Below are positions 40,101 to 46,100 of a DNA stretch of 64,000 nt, piece by piece. The translations under genes were made by a program, and so were the position numbers. Positions within the stretch are counted from its first letter, which is position 1. The number at the start of each line of letters is the position of its first letter. This DNA comes from Synchiropus splendidus (taxonomy: Eukaryota > Chordata > Actinopteri > Syngnathiformes > Callionymidae). The notes below the pieces were generated by a model, which was not told where the DNA came from, did no database searches, and worked only from the letters and a program-made list of their open reading frames with translations. The stretch covers positions 31,757,501 to 31,821,500 of the forward strand of contig NC_071335.1 of assembly GCF_027744825.2 (NCBI RefSeq). The letters run 5' to 3'.

Positions 40101-43100
40101 ATTTTAGACATTTGTGCCGCATTGGCTTTTGGACGCTAGACTTTTTTTTTTTTATGAAGGACACTTTGTCATCGGTACATTGGGTTGGGGATGGACTGAA
40201 GTTGCTTGGTGGAGGTTTGCGCTCTCTGAGTGTTTTTACAGTTGAAACTGCGTCAAGTTGAAGTCACACAGTGTGAGTGTGTAATGATGCATCTATTATT
40301 GCTGTTCACAATTCGTTCCATTCGGAATCCGCATGTCCTTTGTCTCCAGTGGCAGACAGAGTTTTTGTCTACACAACGTTCCGGACTGTAAAAGTTAAGC
40401 CAGGTCTCTGGCCGACTTCCAGGCTTGACATCCAGGCATCCTCTGGTGGACCTGCTGAGTTTCCTCTTACCAATGTCCTGATCATGTGTTCCTCTTAATG
40501 GCTCACAAGGTGCACTTGTGCCTGGGCAGGACACTGTGGGCGGGTTGGACTCCATAGAGCCTGGAGCCATGCGCTCTCTCTGCCTTTTGCAGCACTTGAC
40601 TAGTCAAAATTGTCGCAGATAACAGGCTCTATGTTGACAAGCTGCTCAGAGGTGATAAGTGAACGGAGGCTGCAGATACTGGAGGTGACAATCGACGTAG
40701 AGACCCGTAAATTGTTTAATCGTTTATTAGCGGAAATCTAATAAAGGCTAATGCAGGGGTGGTTGAGCTTGAACCAGCGTCTTCTCTGTGAAAGATGGTG
40801 TCACCCACCCATCCGGACTGAGCATGCCTGCTCCAGTGTTCTGCTGGAGGAGATCCAAAGGCCATTTGAATGTGTGCGACTCACAACAGCTGCTACTTTC
40901 TCCTCATCCCTCACCCCGACTCCATCTTGTAACACGAACCGTTGAAGCACATGCAGCCTCCACACCGCACACCTTCACGGTTATAATTAAATAGAGGTCA
41001 CGACCTTGTGCTCTTTGTGGACTGTAGCTGTGCAAGGAATCCTTGATCCATGAAAGCATGTGAAGTGTTCTGTAATAGATATGGTAATTGTTGTAGTGAC
41101 ATTGTAATTACGCCTAGTTCCAAGCCGTAGACCTGTTGATGAAGTGAAGCGCTAGTGCTAGCACAGTTAGTGAGTTTGCATGGTGTCCTTCAAGCAACTT
41201 CGATATGACGGGACGGTCAGTGCATTCCTGGCTCAGCTGTCTGCTGTCCAGCAACAACTGTTGGTGAGTCTCAAACCAACTGTATGAGAGATACTGAGCA
41301 GCAGGTGATGGACACGACCTGAACTTTACCTTTGCATCTGCCCCATCGCATTGCACGTGGTCATGCCTAGTTATTGTGAATGCACTATTGTTCTTCGTCT
41401 CTGCCATTTTTTTTTCTTCCGCCGCGTTTTTCCTCACGCTATATCTCCCAGAGCTTTCGTCTTAGAGACGCGGTTCGAAAGCCAAAACGTGGGGCCCGAC
41501 CCGGAATCCCCTGCTATTACTTCTCCCAGACCAAGGTGCCAGCATTCCCAAGATATTCCAGGTTTAGTGGGAATTTTTTTCCCATTGAAAATGAATGGGA
41601 CCAGGCCAAAAAGCGAGTTTGCAAAAAGCACAGTCTGTCTGTCGCCCTAAAAAAAGGGCTGCAACCGCATTGAGGAGGAGAGGCTGCTGCGCGAAAATCT
41701 CTGCAAAGTTACTTATTTTCAACTCGCCATCCCAACCAAACTGTAGACATGAAAACCTCAGGATTCTCGGTTTTTCGCTATCTGCTACAGTTTCCGAGAG
41801 GGGGGAAGGGGAAAGGTCACTGGGCTGCTCAGACACAGTCCAGGCCATATCTCGGCCATCTTTGAGCTAGAGACACCGTTCAATGCTTCAGCTGTAGCTG
41901 CAGGCCTCCACTGACAGCATGTGCATGGCGGTGGGGCATGGTGCATTCACAAGCTGTTTATTCATAAACAGCAGCGTTTAGTATATTCTAACATGTTCTG
42001 TTTAAACTCATTGTGGTTCTCTATCACAGAGCTGCTGTCGGACTCAACCTCCCCGGACGATGAGCTATTAGTGCAGCTCCAGCTCCAGCAGCCAGAGGAG
42101 GACTTGTTCTCTTGTGGCTGTGACTCAGCAGAGGAGCACACCAGCCAGAGCTCCTCTAATGACACCCCAGCACCGGAGAGAGCCTTGTGCCAGCCCTGCA
42201 ACCCCCCTCCAGCTCTACAGCCGGAGGAAGACACACCTGAGGAGGAGGCCGTGACGAGTGATGCGGAGGAGCCAGAGGTTGTTCATGAGGAGGGTGGAGA
42301 AGATGCTGACGACGGGCCTGCAAGCACAGTTGGTGAGGCAGAAGATGAGGATGAGCTGGAGTCTGCAGAAGAGCAGGAGGATGCTGCACCCAAAACGGAA
42401 GAAGAACCGGAAGAGCTGCCTGACACTGATGCAGCTGAATCCGAAGATGAAGTCGACTCAATCCTAGAGGAAGGTGAATTGGAGGAAATCGACGCTGTGG
42501 AGTCAACAATTGAACCCGAAGACAAAGCTGCTTCAGAACCAGAGGAGGACGAGTCTGAAGGTGAGTCGGAACCTATAATGAATCTTCGAGTGAATCCAGA
42601 AATTGTAGAAGAAAGACCAGAGTTTGAAGAAGATCTAAGTTTAGAACCAGAGGTGGAAAACGACATAGAAGAAGCTGAAGAAGAAGAGGCCACAGTGGAT
42701 GAAAGGAAAGCAGAGGAAGCCACAGTGGAAGAAGCTGAAGAAGAAGAGGCCACAGTGGATGAAAGGAAAGCAGAGGAAGCCACAGTGGAAGAAGAAGAAG
42801 AAGCCACCTTAGATGAAGCTGAAATACAACAAGCTACTGTGGAAGAAACAGAAGAGGAAGCCACCTCAGATGAAGCTAAAATAGAAGAACCCACTGTGGA
42901 AGAAACAGTAGGAGAAGCCGCCTTAGATGGAGCTAAAATAGAAGAAGCCACTGTGGAAGAAACAGAAGAGGAAGCCACCTTAGATGAAGATAAAATAGAA
43001 GAAGCCACTGTGGAAGAAACAGTAGAAGAAGGCACCTTAGGTGGAGCAAACATAGAAGAAGCCACTGTGGAAGAAACAGAAGAAGAAGCCACCTTAGATG

Positions 43101-46100
43101 GAGCTAAAATAAAAGAAGCCACTGTGGAAGAAACAGAAGAAGAAGCCACCTTAGATGAAGATAAAATAGAAGAAGCCACTGTGGAAGAAACAGTAGAAGA
43201 AGCCACCTTAGATGAAGCTAAAATAGAAGAAGCCACTGTGCAGGAAACAGTAGAAGAAGCCACCTTAGATGAAGCTAAAATAGAAGAAGCCACTGTGGAA
43301 GAAACAGAAGAAGAAGCCGCCTCAGATGGAGCTAAAATAGAAGAAGCCACTGTGGAAGAAACAGTTGAAGAAGCCACCTTAGATGAAGTTAAAATAGAAG
43401 AAGCCACTGTGGAAGAAACAGTAGAAGAAGCCACCTTAGATGAAGTTAAAATAGAAGAAGCCACTGTAGAAGAAACAGTAGAAGAAGCAAAAATAGAAGA
43501 ACCCACTGTGGAAGAAACAGTTGAAGAAGCCACCTTAGATGAAGTTAAAATAGAAGAAGCCACTGTGGAAGAAACAGTAGAAGAAGCCGCCTCAGATGGA
43601 GCTAAAATAGAAGAAGCCACTGTGGAAGAAACAGTTGAAGAAGCCACCTTAGATGAAGTTAAAATAGAAGAAGCCACTGTGGAAGAAACAGTAGAAGAAG
43701 CCACCTTAGATGAAGTTAAAATAGAAGAAGCCACTGTGGAAGAAACAGTAGAAGAAGCCACCTTAGATGAAGTTAAAATAGAAGAAGCCACTGTGGAAGA
43801 AACAGTAGAAGAAGCCGCCTCAGATGGAGCTAAAATAGAAGAAGCCACTGTGGAAGAAACAGTTGAAGAAGCCACCTTAGATGAAGCAAAAATAGAAGAA
43901 CCCACTGTGGAAGAAACAGTTGAAGAAGCCACCTTAGATGAAGTTAAAATAGAAGAAGCCACTGTGGAAGAAACAGTAGAAGAAGCCACCTTAGATGAAG
44001 TTAAAATAGAAGAAGCCACTGTGGAAGAAACAGTTGAAGAAGCCACCTTAGATGAAGTTAAAATAGAAGAAGCCACTGTGGAAGAAACAGTAGAAGAAGC
44101 CACCTTAGATGAAGTTAAAATAGAAGAAGCCACTGTGGAAGAAACAGAAGAAGAAGCCACAGTAGATGAAGTGGAAGAAGCTCAAGTGGAGGACGTAACT
44201 TCTCAATCTAAAATCAAAGGTAACCACAGACTGTGGGTGATGGAGTATCATCTTTCCGGCAGGTTGGACAAATATGAAACTGTGTGTAGCTAAAGAGGAA
44301 TTAGCAACAAGGCCTAGCACTGAAATAAACAGACCAGAATAGCTGAGCAGGGAACCACGCAGCTTGCTGGACAAGGCTGTGATATAACAGTGAGGAGCAG
44401 ATGCTCCAGTCACTCGCAGCCCAGCCTTTAAGATCTCATTACTCCTGATACAGGAGGCTAGGAGAAGATATTAAAGATGCAAAGATGTCCACAAAGCATC
44501 AGCGTTTAAAAAGACAACACCAGACAAATAAATAAACACCCATAATATCTAAACCTAAATCATGGCGAAATAAATAAATGGATGAAATATACATAGCTAG
44601 TAAATGGATAATAGATAGATAATAATACATTTTATAAATATATTTAGACCGATACGCAAAAGTACGCACAAGTATATTTTTCTCCATGGCCACCTTGTAA
44701 TGGTCAACTTTATCCCATCATCGCCATCATTCTACTCCAGGTCTCAGGCAGGTGAATGAGCTTCCACAACATTAATAGTCACCTACGCGTTTAAATAGAG
44801 CTACACCACTTGAGATGGAGCTCAACACAGCCACTTGTGAATTGGCTTAATACTAAATGTAACTGTCATTGATGAACTGTGAAAAAAACAAAGCGATAAT
44901 AATTAAATGTTCATGGCATCTGATGTCAGGAGGCGAGGATGAAGCATCGGGCCCCGCAGTGAGGGACCGCTCCCACATCGACGAGACGCTGAGACTGGCC
45001 TCTGCTGAACCCTCCGCTGAGTACACAGGTAAGATACAGGGTTGGAGTGTAGAGTGTGGTTGTTTGAGGATTGAAAAGAGATGAGTTATAGATAGAATTG
45101 CAATGTTTCACATGCTTTGTTTTAATTCCTAACCTGTCAGACTCAAAAAGTCAGAATTATTTTTGGGTTGAAACAGTGTGGCAAAAGGGCGCCAGATCTC
45201 AAATGGGCTTCCTGTGGATCCCTGAGGGGAGGTACTTTGATGGATGATAGTGAAATCTCCTGAAAAACAATGAGAGGCTGATCCTCTGCTAGAACTCACC
45301 CAGCAAATCAAACAGCGTTCTACCCCGGCAGATGGGCCTCTGTCTGAAAAAGCCATCCACATATCCATCCGAATGTTTACCAGACTGGTGCTAAAGACCT
45401 TCCAACAGATGTGTTGAGGCTGTTTTTGGATGTGAATATTACAGCTACGTGTACGTGCGAATTTCTGTGGCGTGATGTGTGTGAAGATGGATCCCGAGAC
45501 ACAGCCCCAGACCCTCTTCATGTCCAATACATTAGTTAAATGGCAATACTGAAATGCTGCATGATTTTCCCTCCTACTTTTAAGCTGCCATAAAGAAACT
45601 GCTGAGCATCTACCACACCGCCATCAAGCCAGTGGAGCAAGCCTTCAAGTACAATGAGCTGAGGCAGCATGAAGTCACAGGTACGTGATGATGACACCCC
45701 GTTCCTTACTGTCTACTACTTTTGCTTGACCGTTCTCCCACACTTGTCAGATGGAGAGATCACCTCCAAGCCCATGGTTCTGTTCCTGGGACCCTGGAGT
45801 GTGGGCAAGTCCTCCATGATCAACTACCTGCTGGGTCTCCACAGCACCTCACAGGAGCTCTACACAGGTTTGTCATCTGAGAGCCGTCAACAGTCCATGT
45901 TGGGAGGCTCTTGTGTGACGTGAAACTGAGTGACACATCGAGGCAGAAGGCCTCCAACAGTGTGGAGAAGAAACTGAACCCCATTCTATGATAGTACAAC
46001 TTGAATGTTGACCAGGGGATCAGGATAATGTCAGCACTGACACCAAACAGAACAGGCCTGGTTCATCTCTTACTATCTCTCCTAGCTTCCCTGATATAGA

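Follow-up and report, generated by a model that had tools for sequence, protein, structure and literature searches.

The calcium buffers of the reticulum tend to be regarded as invariant components, and the question raised here is whether one of them, sarcalumenin, carries in the mandarinfish a stretch whose size is still changing. We analysed 64,000 bp of the Synchiropus splendidus genome (the window; RefSeq assembly GCF_027744825.2, contig NC_071335.1, hereafter C2, positions 31757501-31821500), which contains the sarcalumenin gene, srl. Exon 2 of this gene is an extreme, length-variable coding minisatellite in a known gene: its acidic product is largely built from 57-bp units, and a second, near-identical copy of the locus on the same contig holds far fewer of them.

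Rebuilt from its splice junctions, srl has eight exons and a stop at 48573 (Table 1), giving a long form of 1212 residues and a form without exon 2 of 482 residues, both with open reading frames; the exons surrounding exon 2 are intact. The core scored over the cut-off for the Pfam families Dynamin_N, EHD_N and MMR_HSR1, matched the structures of EHD2 and EHD4 (best E 8e-65) and is 90% identical to that of tuna. Many of the 120 listed homologues carry the name sarcalumenin, and the motif GPWSVGKS in exon 5 is presumably the Walker A. As in rabbit and other vertebrate long sarcalumenins, there is a hydrophobic leader (judged by eye), an acidic insert and an EHD/dynamin-like GTPase core, with the insert lying between the other two in a phase-symmetric exon, the arrangement that characterises sarcalumenin. 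Gene model, domains and homologues thus agree with a previous model-made annotation of the letters (the sequence-only reading), which had named the gene sarcalumenin and the exon acidic. The top two protein-search matches are RefSeq proteins of S. splendidus, the first of which (P0001) starts nine codons upstream of 37200, equivalent to an in-frame ATG at 37173. The RefSeq label 'titin-like' was rejected, given that exon 2 contains no Pfam family and the remainder is an EHD-type core. Misleading names are also found on other fish sarcalumenins (P0001, P0006, P0078, P0100, P0103 and others are called titin-like, cardiomyopathy-associated protein 5-like, myosin-14-like or proteoglycan 4-like), and are probably caused by the acidic segment.

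The frame of exon 2 is open from 41915 to 44293, whilst 67 and 70 stops interrupt the remaining two forward frames. Tandem Repeats Finder reported overlapping arrays with periods of 57, 114 and 171 among others across 42712-44171. Aligned in the I-E-E register, the array comprises 26 rows: 23 of 57 bp, one of 42 bp and two degenerate (60 bp at 42710 and 54 bp at 42770). The sequence-only reading had counted about 25 units, one of them short of five codons in frame, and both statements hold. Its coordinates, 42030..44219, correctly delimit the entire exon; as bounds of the repeat they are too wide, because about 212 acidic, non-repetitive residues open the exon and the array spans ~42668-44176. 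The 19-residue consensus is IEEATVEETVEEATLDEVK, in which 8/19 residues are acidic and histidine is absent from the units. Across the exon 298/729 residues are acidic (41%, net charge -264), somewhat fewer than the half proposed earlier. The claim that 3' units are nearly identical was right in tendency: the 13 full units from 43394 onward share a mean pairwise identity of 94.8%, as against 90.8% for the 10 full units before them. The repeat score of the segment is 200.8, the best among 40 shuffles being 5.5.

Table 1. Features of the window. Positions count from the first letter of the window.
Feature	Position	Strand	Basis and remarks
Reverse transcriptase fragment (RVT_1, 32 bits)	4214-4705	-	profile match
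~25 copies of TTTTG	7285-7411		repeat finding
Immunoglobulin-domain gene exon	11331-11939	-	domain match
PBC/homeobox gene exon	16331-17387	-	domain match
Helix-loop-helix gene exon	30944-31483	+	domain match
srl exon 1, signal-peptide-like MKVLLSVCFLLSLVASFSA	37200..37257	+	sequence, splice junction, phase 1 out
srl exon 2, acidic, 2190 bp, phase 1-1	42030..44219	+	acceptor, donor, frame; shorter version in RefSeq P0001 of second copy
Non-repetitive acidic part of exon 2	42030..42667	+	99.5% identity to second copy; 3 amino-acid changes, zero silent
Internal 5' splice site AAG/GTGAGT, 9/9 consensus positions	42560..42561	+	best-scoring donor in exon 2
Degenerate 5' repeat end, with 60-bp tandem duplication	42668..42823	+	repeat and unit analysis
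Eight 57-bp units (3-10)	42824..43279	+	unit alignment: seven match second-copy units at 0-2 mismatches; unit 7, at 43052, unpartnered
Expanded 3' block of 15 units (11-25), largely private	43280..44119	+	unit alignment: 12/15 unpaired with second copy, 3 paired at 3-4 mismatches
42-bp unit, five codons lost in frame	43451..43492	+	unit register; second copy has no such unit
Last unit	44120..44176	+	identical in both copies
Distal donor AAG/GTAACC, 7/9 consensus positions	44219..44220	+	donor scoring
srl exon 3	44930..45028	+	splice-junction gene model
srl exon 4	45585..45680	+	splice-junction gene model
srl exon 5, contains GPWSVGKS	45751..45867	+	splice-junction gene model
srl exon 6	46860..47093	+	splice-junction gene model
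srl exon 7	47162..47511	+	splice-junction gene model
srl exon 8, includes stop	48079..48573	+	splice-junction gene model
Adenylyl cyclase gene exon	53014-54993	+	domain match

An exon probe matched a second place on the contig (C2:15599970-15600600, minus strand), and the two srl copies lie 16 Mb apart in opposite orientation. The window from ~501 to its end, plus 20 kb rightward, recurs in C2:15542001-15642000 with non-array blocks 96.9-99.2% identical; the comparison covered 100 kb at the second place, and the 20 kb left of the window fell beyond that span. Eleven blocks (79,281 aligned columns, with blocks of <1 kb and those touching the array dropped) contain 0.84% mismatches and 674 gap columns. 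The srl model of the second copy is intact, and the only changes in its core are 7 silent ones and 1 that alters an amino acid. Its exon 2 is 1530 bp long, counts 13 units of 57 bp plus a degenerate one, and is therefore 660 bp (220 amino acids) shorter than that of the window, both being in frame; it encodes 212 acidic residues, 86 fewer. Since near-identical copies carry 13 and 23 full units, the recent turnover postulated by the sequence-only reading is borne out, and the single clear unit found in another dragonet (see below) points the same way.

The second copy is probably the other allele, a haplotig placed in pieces, as judged from the alignments and the size of the assembly. That the copies are paralogues of a recent segmental duplication, so that length differs between genes and not alleles, is unlikely, even though they share one contig 16 Mb apart in opposite orientation. 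Two further probes fit paralogues in that their order is no simple mirror: a probe at 33.0 Mb has an inverted partner at C2 14.40 Mb (96% identity), and one at 30.0 Mb a partner at C2 18.97 Mb in the same orientation (98% identity). Against this, the 0.84% mismatches are of the order of the heterozygosity published for the mandarinfish (1.20-1.31%), and the assembly measures 582.7 Mb against a k-mer genome size of 481-492 Mb, figures which together suggest that it contains extra haplotype sequence (values as given in passages of PMC8664458).

A mirror-image inverted duplication of C2 was set aside. It accommodates the 33.0-Mb probe, but the partner of the 30.0-Mb probe lies elsewhere, and that probe gave no match in the 30 kb around its mirror place. 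The 18.97-Mb partner lacks ~560 bases of the 30.0-Mb sequence (L025 positions 1993-2551); these overlap a dispersed repeat and are possibly an insertion in one haplotype. Nearly the whole window (~501-64000) recurs on the contig, and its genes may be annotated twice.

Aligning the units of the two copies locates the difference (Table 1). Units towards the 5' end are mostly paired and those of the 3' block mostly are not, whilst the second copy holds an extra pair of units of its own. The conserved 5' block followed by a largely private 3' block is the pattern of polar turnover. Polar change is a feature of classical minisatellites and of coding variable number tandem repeats, and the srl array shares with them one conserved and one largely private end, although the srl comparison rests on only two copies. 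If the copies are alleles, as is probable, the difference of 660 bp would make the array a polymorphic coding minisatellite. The unit number might instead have been inflated or collapsed by the assembler, tandem arrays being a weak spot of assembly. We regard this as improbable: the 3' units fall into several distinct types, the frame is kept in both versions, and the shorter version is modelled in full by RefSeq. Identical unit types recur inside the 3' block of the window, and all exon 2 and unit lengths in both copies are divisible by three. The ratio of nonsynonymous to synonymous differences (pN/pS) among units reaches 0.90 for the window's array and 0.71 for that of the second copy, and therefore the unit sequence is little constrained.

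The sole other callionymid among the protein matches listed is Neosynchiropus ocellatus. Three windows of its segment, at residues 107, 126 and 145 (from residue 29) and thus 19 apart, match 10, 12 and 10 of the 19 consensus positions, whilst shuffles (n=300) gave 9 at the 99th percentile and a maximum of 11; there are about three degenerate units, one of them clear. In the same consensus test the scores of tuna and two syngnathids fell within those of shuffles. On these comparisons a short 19-residue register probably predated the mandarinfish array, which would then have grown there.

Acidic repeats of other sequence are common in the same segment of srl across species. Tandem repetition in the acidic segment was scored for 120 proteins each from fish and tetrapods, those listed out of 521 and 1052 matches, and an array was called where the score was at least double that of the best among 40 shuffles. 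Left out were two proteins without the anchor (one fish, one tetrapod) and eight tetrapod proteins with short segments. These sets are closest matches and were not drawn at random, and protein models may misrepresent repeats. Among the matches listed, arrays were called in 65/119 fish and 20/111 tetrapod proteins or, taking the best protein per species label, in 49/99 fish and 18/103 tetrapod labels (1/100 and 9/112 labels were not analysed, and a few labels are unnamed records). Two tetrapod matches (P0222, P0195) are non-acidic and probably bad models. The window ranks first by repeat score among the matches listed (200.8), followed by the second copy (102.8) and Lycodopsis (69). Segments of 48 listed array-bearing fish are 32-47% acidic, with units that are PE-rich in many percomorphs, VEE-rich in cod and sticklebacks, and 24 residues long in plaice.

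The sequence-only reading knew of no such regular array in the acidic long form of mammals; that mammals lack one is not supported, a 12-residue array being present in the same segment of primates such as macaques (Macaca) and orangutan (Pongo). These arrays and those of percomorphs, cod and sticklebacks resemble the mandarinfish array in gene, segment and acidic tandem units; they differ in unit, mostly in period, and in their lower scores, as compared at the protein level. Rabbit sarcalumenin (P13666, P0137), whose segment is 25% acidic compared with 41% in the mandarinfish, fails the array rule (score 9.85, best shuffle 5.2) where the mandarinfish has a strong 19-residue array. No description of such an array was found in the listed entries and passages of open-licence papers on sarcalumenin, its repeats, splicing and calcium binding, which is no proof of absence. 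Sarcalumenin entries from three macaque species (P0121, P0122, P0124, P0129-P0132), among them several isoform models, are between 833 and 980 residues long, several with the 12-residue array, a possible length polymorphism in primates. In other fish, isoform models differ within their repeats; we made no use of these differences, which could stem from faulty models. A quick tree of core proteins gave at least 25 changes between array and no array, 29 in a four-state coding and 7 for the VEE type; it was not leaned on as evidence of independent origins, owing to its ad hoc labels (Synchiropus fell under 'other') and highly conserved core.

The array falls on the disordered side of the charge-hydropathy boundary and contains zero aromatic residues and zero cysteine. 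An ordered alternative is offered by the RTX roll, a calcium-binding beta-solenoid. AlphaFold2 drew the array as many short strands in a 19-residue rhythm, which we read as a beta-solenoid (mean predicted local distance difference test, pLDDT, 71.4; predicted template modelling score, pTM, 0.56). For the repeated unit, the hydrophobic moment is highest at 75 degrees (1.16) and 150 degrees (1.12), angles close to harmonics of the 19-residue period. We nevertheless hold an RTX-like fold binding calcium in an ordered way to be very improbable: the antisense translation of the array DNA, which is no known protein, gave a like strand pattern with somewhat less confidence (pLDDT 61.4, pTM 0.48), the charge-hydropathy placement is that of a disordered chain, and AlphaFold2 is reported to draw such folds for perfect repeats (PMC11795689), so that the prediction is likely an artefact. 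An amphipathic helix or regular strand was also rejected, though not fully excluded, the moment being just 0.04 at 100 degrees and 0.32 at 170.

Among known systems the array can be likened to HRC, which buffers calcium in the reticulum lumen and carries nine tandem repeats of 29 residues, nearly identical to one another and bearing acidic runs (described in passages of PMC6171002). In HRC the repeats contain HRHRGH and a cysteine cluster closes the protein; by contrast, the srl unit has no histidine, the C-terminus of the protein (GPQCEEKPKNRWRRQ) has no cysteine cluster, and the array, which lacks cysteine and aromatic residues, is joined to a GTPase-like core. According to passages of PMC10000884, long sarcalumenin binds 35 mol calcium per mol with a Kd of ~0.6 mM, whereas calcium binding is beyond the short form. 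The analogy makes it most likely that the array serves as a calcium sponge of low affinity and high capacity. According to the sequence-only reading, unit number would govern how much calcium the long form can hold. Spreading 35 ions over the rabbit segment, whose 425 residues include ~108 acidic ones (25.4%), would, as a rough scaling, assign ~28 ions per molecule to the 86 residues by which the mandarinfish copies differ. The array also has 70 CK2-like [ST]xx[DE] sites against a shuffle mean of 33. Sarcalumenin was tried as a Fam20C substrate in one study (PMC6298778), but the S-x-E motif is rare, with 4 in exon 2.

Splicing could decide whether the array is included at all. Exon 2 can be skipped in frame because its phase is 1-1. 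Moreover, the best donor within it, at 42560, has the same phase as the distal donor, and its use would delete the array in frame; a further donor at 42473 scores 8. The 42560 site is present in both copies, and in RefSeq isoform X2 (P0002) of the second copy exon 2 is left at its equivalent and joined to exon 3, giving a protein without 333 residues that contain the array. For the second copy there is also a RefSeq machine model with the complete array, and the two named RefSeq proteins, X1 and X2, both carry second-copy residues; the matches listed include no full-length model for the copy in the window. Overlooked by the sequence-only reading, the internal donor would provide an extra control over inclusion of the array. 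Within the array glutamate is encoded by 183 GAA and 7 GAG codons. GAAGAA hexamers number 81 in the window array, 47 in the second-copy array, 4 in the non-repetitive part and 0 in the core, whose codon usage would predict ~4 in the window array; the 81 arise mainly because glutamate is almost always GAA.

Taken together, the likely explanation is a dragonet-grown, still-changing 57-bp minisatellite encoding a disordered, low-affinity calcium sponge, whose composition is kept whilst its sequence drifts and whose splicing is optional. A few degenerate units would have expanded into the array within the dragonet lineage, whether units were exchanged unequally or slipped against each other, and change would be ongoing. 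The encoded stretch would be intrinsically disordered, strongly negative and located in the sarcoplasmic reticulum lumen, holding many calcium ions weakly, with selection maintaining frame, acidity and approximate length as unit sequences drift. Splicing could leave the repeat out via the strong internal donor or, as the exon phase allows, by exon skipping, and muscle could make both forms. Support for this explanation also comes from the many species in which the segment bears acidic repeats of a different sequence.

Several points weigh against it. N. ocellatus is one gene model from one species, and units may have been lost there or skipped by the model. It is probable but not certain that the second copy represents the other haplotype, and a paralogue would turn the length difference into one between genes. 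The RefSeq isoforms are machine models, both named ones coming from the second copy, and the exon-2-skipped model, at 482 residues, is too short for the length range of the protein search. Near-neutral pN/pS among units is also compatible with an inconsequential repeat, and acidic codons do mutate to others (the tenth residue of the unit is V, E or G, and DE changes to DG).

The repeat may be a neutral passenger, a purine-rich GAA tract that slips easily in a disordered linker, where varying length would be tolerated for want of a strict limit, without selection on calcium capacity. We consider this plausible, if somewhat short of an even chance. It is favoured by the pN/pS of 0.71-0.90, by the differing repeat sequences of many species and by the 50/99 fish species labels that, by the rule used and among the matches listed, have no array. 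The preservation of frame in the observed length differences and the 32-47% acidity of the 48 array-bearing fish segments count against it weakly, since the need for a reading frame and the seed sequence also predict both.

A bolder extension of the sponge explanation, and an improbable one, would make the acidic srl exon a vertebrate-wide nursery of in-frame acidic minisatellites in which unit number dials both calcium sites and inclusion of the exon. Its splicing part is based on the array's GAAGAA hexamers, as hexamers of this type resemble known splice enhancers. If true, GAA-rich units would shift splicing from the perfect internal donor towards the weak distal one, a longer allele would both raise the calcium bound by each molecule and appear in a larger number of molecules, and the 70 CK2-like sites would rise along with the array.

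The interest of the locus lies in the combination of two lengths in one assembled genome, an annotated isoform without the stretch, and acidic arrays of other sequence elsewhere in vertebrates. A main buffer that differs by 86 acidic residues between two copies would, if these are alleles, offer a natural length series for asking how much buffer muscle needs, and to judge from the sequence it is possible that the repeat adjusts calcium storage as it evolves and is no fixed domain.

Lastly, the remainder of the window contains exons of four other genes, a TTTTG repeat and a reverse transcriptase fragment that is probably a decayed retrotransposon (Table 1). The helix-loop-helix exon may belong to TFAP4 and the adenylyl cyclase exon to ADCY9, the neighbours of human SRL.

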